From positions 1,798,001 to 1,862,000 of the forward strand of contig NZ_CP046244.1 in the NCBI RefSeq assembly GCF_009735625.1: a DNA stretch of 64,000 bases. Reading direction: 5' to 3'. The notes beneath the pieces were generated by a model. It did not search any database. It saw only the letters and a program-made list of their open reading frames with translations, and was not told the DNA's origin. A program made the translations under genes and the position numbers. Below, in pieces: positions 15,679 through 54,487 of the stretch (position 1 is its first letter; each line of letters starts with the position of its first letter). Origin of the DNA: Moorella glycerini. Its GTDB lineage: Bacteria > Bacillota > DSM-521 > Neomoorellales > Neomoorellaceae.

Positions 15679-15747
15679 AGTTCGCTATACTTCCAAGGAG
15701 CCTCCCATGGCGACGAGCCCGCCAACAGCTAAGGCTTGAAAATGCCT

Positions 15748-15936
15748 GGCTGGCATTTGTCGGAAGCGAGCGAGCTTCTACCGAGTGGCTAAGCGGCCCA
15801 AGCGAAGCCGAGGGATGATAAGCGGGGCCGAGGACAGCGAGGCCTTCGGCCGGCCTCTGAGGCAAGGACGCCGAATAGGCGGGAACCCCGCCTTAAGCCC
15901 AATGGCTGAGCTGTAGGCCGCTCCACAATGCCAGCC
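15748..15936 (+). repeat. Dispersed structured repeat, copy 1 (upstream of the XRE gene)
   Basis: 189 bp bounded by GGCTGGCATT and AATGCCAGCC, an inverted pair, with internal G/C-rich palindromic blocks (GAAGCGAGCGAGCTTC; GGCCGAGG...CCTTCGGCC). Long blocks match the copy at 51740-51952 in the same orientation, and both copies end about 32-35 bp before a start codon. It codes for nothing convincing. This covers most of the 340-bp gap between the tRNA array and the XRE gene. It could be a miniature mobile element or a structured RNA leader. Confidence 0.7.
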
Positions 15937-19457: not shown

Positions 19458-19485
19458 GCTGCCAGCCAGGCAGCTTTTTTATTTT
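19458..19485 (+). terminator. Terminator of the sulfur-transfer cluster
   Basis: GCTGCC (19458-19463) / GGCAGC (19469-19474), 5-base loop, then six Ts. Confidence 0.85.
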
Positions 19486-19637
19486 GCCTGCCAAGGCTGC
19501 CCGGGTTAATAGCAATTTTTTGCTAGAAAAAGTAAATCAACAGCAGGAATTTTAGTGATGAGAGCGCATAGTTAAATATAGACTGACATTGGCTCCTTAT
19601 TATGCTGATAACTACTTTATCACGTATCAACTGGTGC

Positions 19638-19658
19638 AAACTTTTTGCAAAAAAGTTT
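19638..19658 (+). promoter_or_regulatory. AT-rich perfect inverted repeat upstream of larA-like gene
   Basis: AAACTTTTT (19638-19646) / AAAAAGTTT (19650-19658) with a 3-base loop, 55 bp before the start codon. Could be an operator; it lacks the GC-rich stem of a terminator. The rest of the 19486-19712 gap shows nothing I can assign. Confidence 0.4.
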
Positions 19659-19712
19659 AGCTCAAGACAGCAATTTAAGTAAATTAGTCTAAGGAGTAAA
19701 GGGGATAAGTCT

Positions 19713-21020
19713 ATGGAAATTCAAATGCCCTACGGACCCGGTTTTTTATCCATTGAAGTCCCAGCTCAAAATATCATTGGTTTCCTGGAACCGCCGCCAT
19801 CATTGCCATCATTACCTGACGTTGACGTGGTAATCAAAAATGCTTTAGCCTGCCCCGTGGGTGCCAGGCCCCTCGGGCAACTGGTCCACCCGGGGATGAA
19901 AGTGAGTATTGCCATTTCCGACGCCTCCCGGCCCAATATCGAAAAATGGATTTTACCAGTAGTATTTGCAGAGTTGAGTAAAGCTGGCATTAAAGACGAG
20001 GATATTACGGTTATTGTCGGCACGGGTTCCCACCGCCCGGCCACTCCCGGAGAGATTGCCAGTATGGTAGGGAGTAAGGTTGACAGCATTAAGGTGATTA
20101 ATCATTTTTCCGATACCAGTCCATTGGTCGACCTGGGCCGGACCCCGGGCGGTTACCCGGCCTTAGTAAATCGCTATTTTTATGAAGCTGATCTCAAGAT
20201 CGCCCTGGGCACGATTTTACCCCATCCCATTGCCGGCTACAGCGGCGGCGGCAAGGCCATAGCCGTGGGGCTTTCCTCAAGTGAAACTATCAGCAGCATC
20301 CATACCCCGGCTACCCTGGACGACCCGCACACCGGCCTGGGCAAGGTAGAAGGTAACCCCTTTATCCAGTTCGGCTATGACGTCGCCCGGCTGGCGGGCC
20401 TGGACCTGTTAATCAACGCCGTAGTTAATGAAAAAGAAGAGATTATTGATGTTATCTGCGGCGAGGTGGAAGCGGCCCACCAGACCCTGATTGAGCGTAC
20501 GGCGCGCAAGATTTATGAAGCCCGCTTTGCCACACCGGCAGACATCGTAATCGTTGCTGCCGGCCATCCCAAAGATAATAACCTGTACCATGTTGCCGCC
20601 GAGGCCCTGGGGGTAGTAGCCGGCAACGGGGTTCAGTACCCCTGCGTTAAAAAGGGCGGGACGATAATCGTCGTCTCTCCCATGGCCGAAGGGATTTATA
20701 ATGAAACAATGTTTAAGTACTTGAGCAAGGCGGCACCGGCAGAGGTGGTGCGGGAACTAAAGACGGCGAAAATAGACCGCCCGGGAATGCACCGCGCCTA
20801 CGCTACGGCCCAGATCCTCTGCGACCATGAAATTATCTTTGCTGAAACGCAGTTAGACCCGGAGATAACCCGCCAGGTCCACATCAAGCCCATGGCCACC
20901 GTGGCCGCGGCTCTGGAATATGCCCTGGCCAAACATGGAGCGGGGGCAAGCATCCTGGTAGTTAAAAATTCCCACCGGCTGGTTCCCATATTAGCAGCTT
21001 CAAGTTTAATTAAAATTTAA
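19713..21020 (+). CDS. larA: LarA-family (nickel-pincer lactate racemase-like) protein
   Basis: A 435-residue LarA/DUF2088 protein. Residues matching the LarA active site are visible: His in GTGSHRPATPGE, His in LPHPIAGYSGGGKAIAVGLSS and the Lys in the same motif, to which the nickel-pincer nucleotide is attached in Lactobacillus LarA. The family also contains racemases and epimerases for other 2-hydroxy acids, so lactate is only the likeliest substrate. ATG 19713 follows AAGGAGTAAAGGGG. The maturation genes larB, larC and larE are not in this window, so any cofactor must come from elsewhere. Single-gene unit. Confidence 0.8.
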   Translation: MEIQMPYGPGFLSIEVPAQNIIGFLEPPPSLPSLPDVDVVIKNALACPVGARPLGQLVHPGMKVSIAISDASRPNIEKWILPVVFAELSKAGIKDEDITVIVGTGSHRPATPGEIASMVGSKVDSIKVINHFSDTSPLVDLGRTPGGYPALVNRYFYEADLKIALGTILPHPIAGYSGGGKAIAVGLSSSETISSIHTPATLDDPHTGLGKVEGNPFIQFGYDVARLAGLDLLINAVVNEKEEIIDVICGEVEAAHQTLIERTARKIYEARFATPADIVIVAAGHPKDNNLYHVAAEALGVVAGNGVQYPCVKKGGTIIVVSPMAEGIYNETMFKYLSKAAPAEVVRELKTAKIDRPGMHRAYATAQILCDHEIIFAETQLDPEITRQVHIKPMATVAAALEYALAKHGAGASILVVKNSHRLVPILAASSLIKI

Positions 21021-23135: not shown

Positions 23136-23226
23136 AGGTTACCGCTAAAGGCAAACCCCGCCGAAAGGGGGGGGCGCAAAGCCATGGGTCTAAGGCCTGA
23201 AGGCTAAGATCGCCAGGCTGCCGGTA
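23136..23226 (+). ncRNA. Cyclic di-GMP-I (GEMM) riboswitch aptamer
   Basis: Conserved blocks in order: GGCAAACC (about 23150), a GAAA tetraloop closing a C/G stem, GGCGCAAAGCC, GGGTCTAAGGCC, and CAGGCTGCCGG; the outer helix is formed by TACCG (about 23140) and CGGTA (about 23222). These are hallmarks of the GEMM-I class that binds cyclic di-GMP. Downstream are a terminator-like stem and a 73-codon gene. Confidence 0.85.
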
Positions 23227-50901: not shown

Positions 50902-50911
50902 TATAAAAAAC

Positions 50912-51003
50912 TTAACAGGGGAGCTCCTGTTAGGGGCTGAGAAAGGGCTAGTGAGCACCTGACCCGTTGACCTGATCAGGGTAATGCCTGCGGAGGGAGA
51001 GTG
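50912..51003 (+). ncRNA. TPP riboswitch (THI element)
   Basis: Conserved blocks in order: AGGGG then GGGGCTGAGAAAGGGC, ACCTGACCCGTTGACCTGATC, and GGGTAATGCCTGCGGAGGGA. These are the hallmark sequences of the thiamine-pyrophosphate aptamer. A terminator follows within 15 bases, so TPP binding should switch off thiE-thiS-thiG-hydG by premature termination. Confidence 0.95.
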
Positions 51004-51013
51004 AACGTTTACG

Positions 51014-51052
51014 ACCGGTGTACCTCCTAAAGGAGGCACACCGGTTTTTTAT
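51014..51052 (+). terminator. Riboswitch-controlled terminator of the thiamine operon
   Basis: 14-base arms 51014-51027 and 51032-51045 (ACCGGTGT...CCTCC / GGAGG...ACACCGGT, one mismatch), 4-base loop, T run. Expression platform of the TPP riboswitch. Confidence 0.93.
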
Positions 51053-51083
51053 TGGGAGCAAAACATCTGAATTTACGGAGGTG

Positions 51084-51695
51084 TTGCCCCTGGCCTGGCT
51101 ATATGTCATTACCAACCGCCGCCTGGCGGGTGCCAGGTCCCTGGTAGACCTGGCTGCCAAGCTGACCGGCGTCGATTACTTGCAGCTGCGGGAAAAGGAT
51201 TTACCCGGCAGGGAGCTTTACCACCTGGCCCGGGATATAAAGCAGGCCCTGCCGCCGGGAACGCGGCTGCTGGTCAATGACCGCCTGGATGTGGCCCTGG
51301 CCGCCGGCGCCGACGGGGTGCACCTGGGCGAAAACTCCCTGCCAACGGCCGTGGCCCGCAGGCTTTTAGGGCCCGGCAAAATCGTGGGGGTTTCCGTGCA
51401 CAGCGTGGCGGCCGCCCGGGAAGCGGAGCTGGCCGGCGCTGATTACCTGCTGTTCGGTCATGTATTCCCCACGGCTTCCAAGGAGGGAGTCCCCCCCAGG
51501 GGTCTGGGGCACTTGCGGGAAGTTGTGGCCAGTGTTGGTATACCAATTATCGCCCTGGGCGGCATCAATGCCGCCAGTGCTCCGCAGTGCCTTGCTGCCG
51601 GGGCCAGGGGCGTGGCCGTGATGTCAGCCGTTATGGCTGCTCCCGACCCGGCCCGGGCTGTAGCTGAATTAAAGCAGGCCCTAAGTAAGAGGTGA
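51084..51695 (+). CDS. thiE: Thiamine-phosphate synthase
   Basis: Joins hydroxymethylpyrimidine pyrophosphate and thiazole phosphate to thiamine phosphate. About 203 residues, TIM-barrel, with LYVITNRRLAGARSL, YLQLREKDLPGRELY, LLVNDRLDVALAAGADGVHLGENSLP and the phosphate-binding FGHVFPTASKEGVPPRGLG. The start is uncertain: ACGGAGG (51075-51081) is followed closely by GTG 51081, TTG 51084 and CTG 51090; I give TTG. The frame is open upstream through the terminator, but that cannot be the real start. First gene under the TPP riboswitch; a 290-bp spacer with a repeat follows. Confidence 0.88.
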   Translation: MPLAWLYVITNRRLAGARSLVDLAAKLTGVDYLQLREKDLPGRELYHLARDIKQALPPGTRLLVNDRLDVALAAGADGVHLGENSLPTAVARRLLGPGKIVGVSVHSVAAAREAELAGADYLLFGHVFPTASKEGVPPRGLGHLREVVASVGIPIIALGGINAASAPQCLAAGARGVAVMSAVMAAPDPARAVAELKQALSKR

Positions 51696-51739
51696 GTAGT
51701 GTAGTACCAGCCGGTACCAGCGAGTACATGAAAATACCG

Positions 51740-51952
51740 GGCTGGCATTTGTCGGAAGCGAGCGAGCTTCTACCGAGCGGCGAAGCGGCCCAGGCGAAGC
51801 CGAGGGATGATAAGCGGGGCCGAGGACAGCAAGGCCTTCGGCCGGATTCTAAAGGCAAGGATGCCGAATAGGCCGGGAACCCCGCCTTAAGCCCTGGCTG
51901 AGCCGTAGGCCGCCCAGAGAGGGCACAGGTAGCGAGCGAGACAATGCCAGCC
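51740..51952 (+). repeat. Dispersed structured repeat, copy 2 (between thiE and thiS)
   Basis: 213 bp bounded by GGCTGGCATT (51740-51749) and AATGCCAGCC (51943-51952), matching the element at 15748-15936 over most of its length but with an extra G/A-rich block near the right end. It sits inside the thiamine operon, 36 bp before the thiS start, so it is transcribed with the operon. Confidence 0.7.
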
Positions 51953-51987: not shown

Positions 51988-52188
51988 ATGCGCCTGAAGG
52001 TGAATGGCGAAGAGCGGGAAGTAGCAGCCGGGCTGACGGTTGCCGAACTGCTGCAAGAACTGGGGATCGAGAGCCGTTACCTGGCCCTGGAACGCAACCG
52101 CCGGGTTGTCCCCAGGCAGGATTACGCGACAACCGTTCTTGAGGAAGGTGATGAGCTGGAAATCATCCGCTTTGTAGGGGGAGGCTGA
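51988..52188 (+). CDS. thiS: Thiamine biosynthesis sulfur carrier ThiS
   Basis: A 66-residue ubiquitin-fold carrier that ends in Gly-Gly-Gly (IIRFVGGG); the terminal Gly is converted to a thiocarboxylate that gives sulfur to the thiazole. N-terminus [21 protein letters not shown] is typical. ATG 51988, GGGGAGGC upstream. The adenylating enzyme ThiF is not in the window and must be elsewhere or replaced by MoeB. Confidence 0.94.
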
Positions 52189-52267: not shown

Positions 52268-53044
52268 ATGGATGATAAACTGGTCATCGCCGGGCGGGAG
52301 TTCAATTCCCGCTTGATGGTCGGGACCGGCAAGTATGCCACCATGGAACTCATGCAGCAGGCCATTGCGGCCTCAGGGGCGGAAATAGTGACGGTAGCCG
52401 TGCGCAGGATCAATCTCCAGTCCCCGGGACCATCCCTCCTGGATTACCTGGACCTGCAGAAGATAACTCTCTTACCCAATACCGCCGGGGCCACTACCGT
52501 CGATGAAGCGGTGCGCCTGGCCCGCCTGGCCCGGGAAGCCGGCCTTTCCGATATGATTAAACTGGAGGTTATCGGCGACCAGGAAACCCTTTTACCTGAC
52601 CCGGTGGCAACCATTGAGGCTACCCGCATCCTGGTCCAGGAAGGCTTTATTGTTTTACCCTATACCACCCAGGACGTAGTCGTGGCCCGGCGCCTGGTGG
52701 AAGCCGGGGCGGCTACGGTTATGCCCCTGGGTTCCCCCATAGGTTCGGGACAGGGTCTGCCCAATTTTGATGCCATCAAGCTCATCATCGACCGCGTCAA
52801 TGTCCCGGTGGTAGTTGATGCGGGCATAGGCGCTCCTTCCGACGCCGCCCTGGCTATGGAAATCGGCGCCTCGGCCTGCCTGATCAATACGGCCATTGCC
52901 GAGGCTCGCGACCCTGTTCTCATGGCCGCGGCTATGCGCCAGGCAGTAATTGCCGGGCGCATGAGCTATCTCGCCGGCAGGATACCCAAGAAAACCTATG
53001 CCAGCCCCAGCAGTCCTACCGCGGGCATGATTGGCCGCAGTTAG
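52268..53044 (+). CDS. thiG: Thiazole synthase
   Basis: Forms the thiazole ring from deoxyxylulose phosphate, ThiS-thiocarboxylate and dehydroglycine. 258 residues, TIM-barrel, with [32 protein letters not shown], the Schiff-base lysine region [16 protein letters not shown], and [35 protein letters not shown] 52268 with TTGGAGGTGG upstream. The dehydroglycine donor is expected to be the product of the next gene. Confidence 0.96.
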
Positions 53045-53089
53045 TACGACTTCCTGTTTTTGACCTTCTGTTTTACGGAGGTGGTTGTT

Positions 53090-54487
53090 GTGAGTGTACC
53101 GGCCTATGAATACGAGGGTGAACTGAAGGCGATAGTTGATGGGGAAGCCATCGAGGCCCTCCTGGCAACGCCGCCCCCCGGAGGAGCGGCCCTGGATGCC
53201 ATTTTACGTAAGGCCCGCTCTTTAAAGGGTTTAAGCCTGGAAGAAGTAGCCGCTATCCTTAATTTAGAAGATGCCGCCATGCTGCAAAAGGTTTACCGGG
53301 CGGCAGCTGAAGTTAAAGAGCGGGTTTACGGGCGGAGAATAGTTCTTTTTGCTCCCCTGTATATCAGCAACCTTTGCAGTAATAACTGTCTTTACTGCGG
53401 CTTCCGCCGGGATAACAGGGACCTGAAACGCAAGCTTTTAAGCCCGGAGGAAATTGGTAAAGAAGCCCGGGCCCTGGCTGAGCAGGGCTTCCGGCGCGTC
53501 CTCCTGGTCGCCGGGGAAGGCAGGACGGGTGCCGATGTCGATTATCTCTGCCGGGCCGTTGAGGCGGTTTACCGCTATTCACCCCTGCGTATTGTCCACC
53601 TTAACGTTGCTCCCCAGACGGTGGCCGGCTTTCGCCGCTTGAAGCTGGCCGGGGCCGGCGTTTACCAGTGTTTCCAGGAAACCTACCACCCCGCTACCTA
53701 CCGGGTAATGCATCCCGCAGGTACCAAGGCCGACTACGGCTGGCGCCTGACGGTCATGCACCGGGCCATGGCCGCCGGGTTTGGCGATGTGGGCATGGGG
53801 CCCCTCCTGGGCCTCTATGATTACCGTTTTGAAGTCCTGGCGGCCATCAGCCATGCCCGCAGCCTGGAACAGGCCTTTGGTGCCGGTCCCCATACCATGT
53901 CGGTACCGCGGCTGCGGCCGGCCCTGGGGGCAGCCTTAACTGAGGTTCCCCATCCTTTAAGCGATACCGATTTCCGCAAGGTAATTGCCGTTTACCGCCT
54001 GGCCTTACCTTATGTGGGCCTGGTGCTGACTACCAGGGAGCGGCCGGAACTCCGCGATGAACTGGTGGATATGGGCGTATCCCAGATTTCCGCCGGTTCC
54101 TGTGTCAGCCCGGGCGGCTACGCTGAAGCTGAAGACCCGGCAGCCCAGTTTGAAGTGGGCGACCACCGGCCTTTGAGTGCGATGGTAGCTATGCTCCTGC
54201 AACATGGCCACCTGCCCAGTTTTTGCACCGCCTGTTACCGCTGCGGCCGTACCGGTAAACGTTTTACCGGCCTGGCGCGGGAAGGTGATATCCAGCGATT
54301 CTGCCTGCCCAATGCCATCTTAAGTTTCCAGGAGTACCTGGTAACAAAAGCGCCGCCGGAGTTAAAGGCTGCCGGTGAAAGGGCTATTGCCACGGCCCTG
54401 GCCACCATTGACGATAGCAACTTGCGGGAGGAGACCATGGAGCGCCTGGAGCGAACCCGCCGGGGGGAGGGGGATTTACACTTCTAA
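53090..54487 (+). CDS. hydG: HydG-type radical SAM tyrosine lyase in the thiamine operon
   Basis: A 465-residue radical-SAM tyrosine lyase. The AdoMet-cluster motif is C96-x3-C100-x2-C103 (NLCSNNCLYCGF). The N-terminal region (LKGLSLEEVAAILNLED, IVLFAPLYISNLC) and above all the C-terminal C379-x2-C382-x22-C405 motif (SFCTACYRCGRTGK ... FCLPNAI) are the HydG signature; ThiH is about 90 residues shorter and lacks this second cluster site. HydG makes CO and cyanide for [FeFe]-hydrogenase via dehydroglycine, while ThiH gives dehydroglycine to ThiG. GTG 53090 has ACGGAGG 8 bases upstream. Its place 45 bp after thiG under a TPP riboswitch suggests it serves as, or replaces, ThiH (inference). Confidence 0.85.
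   Translation: MSVPAYEYEGELKAIVDGEAIEALLATPPPGGAALDAILRKARSLKGLSLEEVAAILNLEDAAMLQKVYRAAAEVKERVYGRRIVLFAPLYISNLCSNNCLYCGFRRDNRDLKRKLLSPEEIGKEARALAEQGFRRVLLVAGEGRTGADVDYLCRAVEAVYRYSPLRIVHLNVAPQTVAGFRRLKLAGAGVYQCFQETYHPATYRVMHPAGTKADYGWRLTVMHRAMAAGFGDVGMGPLLGLYDYRFEVLAAISHARSLEQAFGAGPHTMSVPRLRPALGAALTEVPHPLSDTDFRKVIAVYRLALPYVGLVLTTRERPELRDELVDMGVSQISAGSCVSPGGYAEAEDPAAQFEVGDHRPLSAMVAMLLQHGHLPSFCTACYRCGRTGKRFTGLAREGDIQRFCLPNAILSFQEYLVTKAPPELKAAGERAIATALATIDDSNLREETMERLERTRRGEGDLHF

Follow-up and report, generated by a model that had tools for sequence, protein, structure and literature searches.

HydG has been described as an enzyme of H-cluster synthesis (PMC9046217, PMC6212873), with an auxiliary cluster at the base of its barrel cavity (PMC6212873), and it co-occurs with HydF in 179 of 180 genomes at the best-scoring depth (PMC3226654). 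Its presence is the customary signature of [FeFe]-hydrogenase maturation. The other closely related system is ThiH, the 2-iminoacetate synthase encoded in thiamine operons. Here we present a HydG-family tyrosine lyase that occupies the thiH slot in Moorella glycerini. Comparison of its sequence and gene neighborhoods indicates that it very probably works as a thiamine-pathway lyase in the role of ThiH, the H-cluster being served by a separate hydE-linked hydG. No description of HydG in thiamine operons was found in the literature that we searched, which mostly excludes subscription journals, and an earlier description is possible.

The window, that is, the whole stretch of DNA that was analysed, comprises 64,000 nucleotides (contig NZ_CP046244.1, positions 1,798,001 to 1,862,000), and the operon is on its plus strand. 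A TPP riboswitch aptamer is at the operon head (50907-51017; Rfam RF00059, 65.8 bits, gathering threshold 54.3), and directly 3' of it sequence inspection reveals a terminator-like hairpin (ACCGGTGTACCTCC..GGAGGCACACCGGT plus a T-run, 51014-51051), which is the probable expression platform of the riboswitch. Then come thiE, encoding thiamine phosphate synthase (51018-51695; NCBIfam TIGR00693, 168 bits, cut-off 145), thiS, encoding the sulfur carrier protein (51988-52188; TIGR01683, 80 bits, cut-off 37), thiG, encoding thiazole synthase (52268-53044), and the HydG-type gene (53090-54487) as the last one. The true thiE start is probably near 51084-51090, downstream of the listed start, because what opens the listed frame (51018-51083) is the riboswitch terminator. 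The thiG gene is named by similarity and gene order, as NCBIfam gave no specific match; its product is about 45-60% identical to the ThiG proteins of other thi operons, many of which have the order thiS-thiG-thiH. In all 18 further ThiH-bearing thi operons from the phylum, thiH is directly behind thiG, so the window HydG occupies the thiH slot. An earlier note on this DNA, made from the sequence alone, had proposed the order thiE-thiS-thiG followed by a HydG-type gene behind a TPP riboswitch, and the RF00059 match and the thi gene assignments confirm it.

The interval between thiE and thiS contains a dispersed repeat: positions 51729-51913 and 15737-15921 of the window are 92% identical over 187 bases. 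M. stamsii (L027) has relatives of this repeat at the corresponding site and additional copies at 19464-19790, whereas M. mulderi (L026) has a gap of only about 57 bases at the repeat position. The window also has a c-di-GMP-I riboswitch at 23140-23225 (78 bits).

The open reading frame at 53090-54487 is real and complete, and its product has 465 residues. By sequence inspection the start is the GTG at 53090, with GGAGG 7 nt upstream; the longer frame given by the ORF finder, with a TTG start at 53060, was rejected because a GGAGG-like site is absent there. The protein scores 429 bits with the NCBIfam HydG model (TIGR03955), which passes the cut-off of 312, and 312 bits with the ThiH model (TIGR02351), which is below the cut-off of 380; a real ThiH (L106), used as a control for the latter model, scores 499 bits. 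The nearest solved structures by sequence are HydG 4wcx (phmmer E 2e-139) and HydG 4rtb, followed by ThiH 7pd1. The AlphaFold2 model (mean pLDDT 93.5, pTM 0.93) has Foldseek TM scores of 0.93 to 4wcx, 0.84 to 4rtb and 0.71 to ThiH. The radical-SAM motif is CSNNCLYC (C96, C100 and C103; CX3CX2C; 53375-53398), and the auxiliary-cluster motif is C379-X2-C382-X22-C405 (54224-54304). The earlier note had recognized a HydG-type protein by these two motifs; both are present, and the HydG cut-off is passed as well. A third element is H268 of a GPHT motif (53891-53893), which aligns with His 279 of the 4wcx chain (by chain index); this histidine, the ligand of the labile iron, is conserved in HydG and is Val in ThiH.

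The source genome (3.56 Mb, 99.97% complete) encodes a second complete HydG at C1:149178-150554, which is 51% identical to the window protein and scores 636 bits with the NCBIfam HydG model. This second hydG directly adjoins hydE, and beside the pair is a small gene that adjoins hydG or hydE in many other genomes; HydF is encoded elsewhere (C1:3048895-3050064), and the [FeFe]-hydrogenase large-subunit domain has four matches. The genome has no ThiH and no ThiO over the cut-off. Therefore, the H-cluster pathway has a HydG of its own, and the window gene is the only visible candidate for a source of dehydroglycine for ThiG. One of the two readings in the earlier note was that a single enzyme serves both pathways, which would tie hydrogenase maturation to thiamine status. 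With two complete HydG proteins in the genome, one of them directly beside hydE, this reading is disfavoured, and as no riboswitch was found near the hydE-linked hydG, there is nothing to couple the maturation of hydrogenase to thiamine status. An orphan C-terminal piece of hydG (L006:3457-3708; C1 near 140459-140692, minus strand) is found next to kdp-type genes, about 9 kb away from the hydE-linked copy. Its 83 codons are about 96% identical to the parent gene, and it is a recent partial duplication.

The distribution of the two lyases in 18 genomes of the Moorella family displays a pattern. A thi-type protein at 73-100% identity is present in eight of them (G000, G004, G005, G008, G010, G015, G016 and G017), ThiH (36-38% identity) is present in four (G006, G007, G012 and G013), and in none of the 18 do the two occur together. 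In Moorella mulderi and M. stamsii the same protein is 97% and 96% identical, respectively. The gene adjoins thiG wherever the contig allows in the seven further thi-type genomes of the family, and this recurrence, together with the same arrangement in other phyla, excludes chance. All eight genomes with thi-HydG also have a second HydG. The ThiH genes of the family are directly behind thiG as well, and their ThiG is only 53-55% identical to the window ThiG, so that the two systems are alternative cassettes of thiG plus lyase and not a simple exchange of one gene. G011, G002 and G003, the family genomes without either lyase, gave no ThiG match at 1e-40, and ThiO over the cut-off was found in none of 27 genomes examined. 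One of the relatives that use ThiH contains a HydG-like fragment with an in-frame TGA (L110; G007:C1:1790030-1790461).

Thi-type HydG also occurs in other phyla. We surveyed the context of the 80 closest loci in GTDB genomes, and at 12 loci outside the family a HydG relative adjoins thiG in the order hydG-thiS-thiG-thiE; these belong to Nitrospirota and to genomes labelled Deltaproteobacteria, Myxococcota or Proteobacteria. At L065 and L102 the thi-type gene is directly behind a thiamine-type thiF (TIGR02354 over the cut-off), and at L044 thiF is between the riboswitch and hydG. Several thi-HydG operons extend into thiC, and one extends into thiD. A TPP riboswitch is upstream on the same strand at 13 of 16 loci tested and is present at five of nine additional loci, some of which run into a contig end. 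A thi-type subgroup consisting of L208 (G419) and the related L168, L169 and L171 has neither thiG nor a riboswitch adjoining, and no thiamine neighbor was seen at L208. The relatives of this subgroup are L065 and L102, and ABC-transporter and histidine-kinase neighbors are common to L102 and L208.

HydF over the cut-off is found in none of the 14 non-family thi-type genomes, whereas it is found in 14 of 14 Moorella-family genomes. The same 14 non-family genomes yielded no [FeFe]-hydrogenase domain and no ThiO over the cut-off, and HydE is over the cut-off in one. Exactly one HydG-family gene and no ThiH are present in 13 of them. The exception, G413, is a draft genome with an extra hydE-hydG pair (L126) and without detected HydF or [FeFe]-hydrogenase; contamination or an incomplete assembly is a possible explanation for the pair. 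Most of the 14 genomes are drafts or metagenome assemblies with no reported completeness, and any single absence is therefore weak evidence; the joint absence of the H-cluster machinery is not plausibly due to chance. The other reading in the earlier note, namely that a HydG paralogue has been recruited to thiamine synthesis, is supported by the operon, the riboswitch, the swap with thiH within the genus and the absence of ThiO, and it is also backed by these sister proteins in thiamine operons of genomes that lack the hydrogenase system.

A maximum-likelihood tree of 73 rows places the thi-type proteins in one group (98/93), apart from the hydE-linked HydG, and separates ThiH from HydG plus thi-type at 100/100. 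When the alignment was restricted to the barrel columns and further Nitrospirota were added, the support for the thi-type group was 100/100. In the 73-row tree, the choice between a sister and a nested position of this group relative to the other HydG has a support of only 48/0. The earlier note had named two observations that together would refute its readings: a separate complete hydG beside hydE was found, and a placement with ThiH was not, as the protein is on the HydG side of the tree. A further thi-operon HydG, L117 of G033, is in the arrangement riboswitch-thiE-hydG-thiS-thiG-thiC and groups with T. italicus HydG (100/99). A single origin of all thi-operon HydG, with L117 joined to the main clade, was rejected (p-AU 0.000175), and HydG has thus come into thiamine operons on at least two occasions, unless the root is within the thi-type group. 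The only HydE match in G033 (82% complete) is a weak match of the thi-operon HydG gene itself.

The tyrosine-site residues of ThiH are T299, R300, R306, S318 and S321 (PMC9046217), and according to the alignment their counterparts are kept in all thi-type proteins. Likewise, no thi-type member of the main set has lost an auxiliary cysteine or the GPHT histidine. The conservation of CX2CX22C in orthologues with the same context, which the earlier note had suggested as a check, thus holds for the main set and fails for three proteins described below (L190-L192). Other positions separate the two types. When 18 thi-type proteins were compared with 75 other HydG, R179, N181, T202, I323 and M408 (numbered by the 4wcx chain index) were kept in 75 of 75 HydG and in none of the 18 thi-type proteins. 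The replacements are I or M for R179, H for N181, V for T202, V for I323 and R, T, H or L for M408. T320, which is invariant or nearly so in the 75 HydG, is A or V in 17 of the 18. The same split was seen in 15 extra thi-type and about 10 extra HydG-type proteins. The independent recruit L117 has the HydG states at the diagnostic positions except for T320A.

In the window protein, I168 and H170 (53591-53599) replace the Arg and Asn that are invariant in all 75 HydG. Residues 168, 170 and 172 (equivalent to 179, 181 and 183) alternate on one barrel strand (168-172) of the AlphaFold2 model, and in ThiH the residue at the position of 172 binds the carboxylate of the substrate (PMC9046217). With the auxiliary cluster at the bottom of the cavity, as noted above, the model suggests that the replaced residues line the path from the tyrosine site to this cluster. 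The E128/N158 pair has been used to distinguish HydG from ThiH (PMC9046217); we dropped it as a marker because the pair is V/N, I/E or L/E in some hydE-linked HydG. The C. hydrogenoformans HydG (4rtb) had been suspected of being thi-type from its V/N pair; its diagnostic positions are R, N, T, I, I and M, and it is classed as a hydrogenase-type HydG by the diagnostic-residue test. Omega for the cluster domain versus the barrel is 0.034 versus 0.080 in the pair L028/L057 and 0.115 versus 0.120 in L047/L074, all from hydrogenase-free genomes, and purifying selection thus acts on the cluster domain there.

A thi-type profile was used to survey 246 genomes of the phylum of L033, 43 of which had a match; complete thi-type proteins scored at least about 664 bits and complete hydE-type HydG at most 616. 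Three Nitrospirota proteins, L190, L191 and L192, have lost the auxiliary site and are still encoded in a riboswitch-hydG-thiS-thiG-thiE operon, with thiS not detected at L192, where there is a gap in the sequence. PNLCRRC and then unrelated sequence replace PSLCTACYR..GR.G, and the GPHT histidine has become Val, the ThiH state, or Ala. Secondary loss of the site is favoured because a vestigial cysteine pair remains, the neighboring ThiG is 80-81% identical to the L033 ThiG and the gene order is kept. The three proteins are basal when ThiH is present in the tree and beside L033 (99/99 as a group) when it is not, and the tree program warns of long branches and odd composition. The view that they are primitive intermediates could not be secured, as they join ThiH if it is present and fall inside the thi clade if it is absent. 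In a rooted barrel tree that includes them, the thiamine-operon enzymes form a grade below a single HydG clade; this topology vanishes without ThiH or without the cluster-less members, and it could therefore be an artefact of long branches. Judging by the cluster-less members, the auxiliary cluster is not strictly required in the thiamine context.

We propose that the window protein cleaves L-tyrosine at the radical-SAM site to p-cresol and dehydroglycine, a reaction predicted from the conserved residues and the known chemistry of HydG and ThiH. The dehydroglycine would be handed to ThiG for thiazole formation, under the control of the TPP riboswitch; the operon and the lack of another dehydroglycine source point to this hand-over. 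The altered channel residues presumably lower or divert the flow toward the auxiliary cluster, and the H-cluster of the same cell would be matured by means of the separate hydG beside hydE. Two observations count against this explanation: the auxiliary cluster, which a plain ThiH role does not need, is conserved, and thiG does not adjoin the gene in some members of the clade (L065 and L102, which have thiF, and L208). The cluster may be idle but folded, may be a holding site or may have residual CO/cyanide chemistry. A variant of our explanation in which it is idle and kept for folding, the CO/CN chemistry being gone, has slightly less than an even chance of being correct. The replacement of the barrel residues R179, N181, T202 and I323 and the cluster-domain residue M408 in 18 of 18 proteins fits this variant, as does the complete decay of the site in L190-L192; however, all other complete members examined retain the histidine and each of the three cysteines, and the purifying selection on the cluster domain in hydrogenase-free genomes also speaks against idleness. 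Indeed, the conservation outside the cluster-less members argues that the cluster is usually used for something. It could work in thiamine synthesis, e.g., by keeping dehydroglycine or an iron-bound cysteine available to ThiG, with hydrogenase HydG descending from the thiamine-operon enzymes, although we regard this combination as unlikely.

Other explanations keep the protein in H-cluster synthesis. In one of them, a single riboswitch-controlled HydG supplies ThiG with dehydroglycine and the H-cluster with CO/CN; the intact auxiliary-cluster motif and GPHT histidine and the [FeFe]-hydrogenases of the genome speak for it. However, a second HydG is present in this genome (beside hydE) and in all of the thi-type family genomes, thi-type proteins exist in other phyla without HydF or hydrogenase, and every thi-type protein has substitutions at residues that do not vary in 75 HydG, all of which makes such a double role very improbable. 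We give even less credence to a second H-cluster or CO/CN maturase whose position in the thi operon is incidental. The protein does pass the HydG equivalog cut-off and has the full fold, including the C-terminal domain, but a maturase would leave the thiG genomes that lack ThiH and ThiO without a dehydroglycine source; furthermore, the thi context recurs across phyla without hydrogenases, and three members without an auxiliary site remain in the operon.

If our proposal that HydG works in the ThiH role is correct, it has consequences for annotation. Current family models would name the thiamine enzymes HydG, since the cut-off is passed, and so, hydrogenase-free genomes appear to own part of the [FeFe]-hydrogenase machinery. 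HydG, thi-HydG with the cluster and an altered channel, and thi-operon forms without the cluster make up a natural series, in which evolution would have separated the dehydroglycine half of HydG from the CO/cyanide half. Two questions become testable with this series, namely what the second site is for where no H-cluster is built and which residues steer dehydroglycine toward it.

In comparison with known systems, thi-HydG has in common with HydG (4wcx and 4rtb) the full-length fold (TM 0.93), the radical-SAM site, the tyrosine-site residues, the GPHT histidine and the CX2CX22C auxiliary-cluster motif. It differs in that it is encoded in a TPP-riboswitch thiamine operon with ThiG, not HydE/HydF, as its partner, in that it forms a separate clade and in that R179, N181, T202, I323 and M408, present in 75 of 75 HydG, are replaced. 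With ThiH (TIGR02351; 7pd1) it shares the operon slot, the regulation, the tyrosine-site residues T/R/R/S/S and presumably the product, dehydroglycine, whereas it is about 90 residues longer with a second cluster site, has His for Val at the GPHT position and has Asn for Glu at TcThiH position 158. Finally, thi-HydG and ThiO would both be dehydroglycine sources for ThiG, but ThiO is an unrelated flavoprotein that uses the glycine oxidase route.
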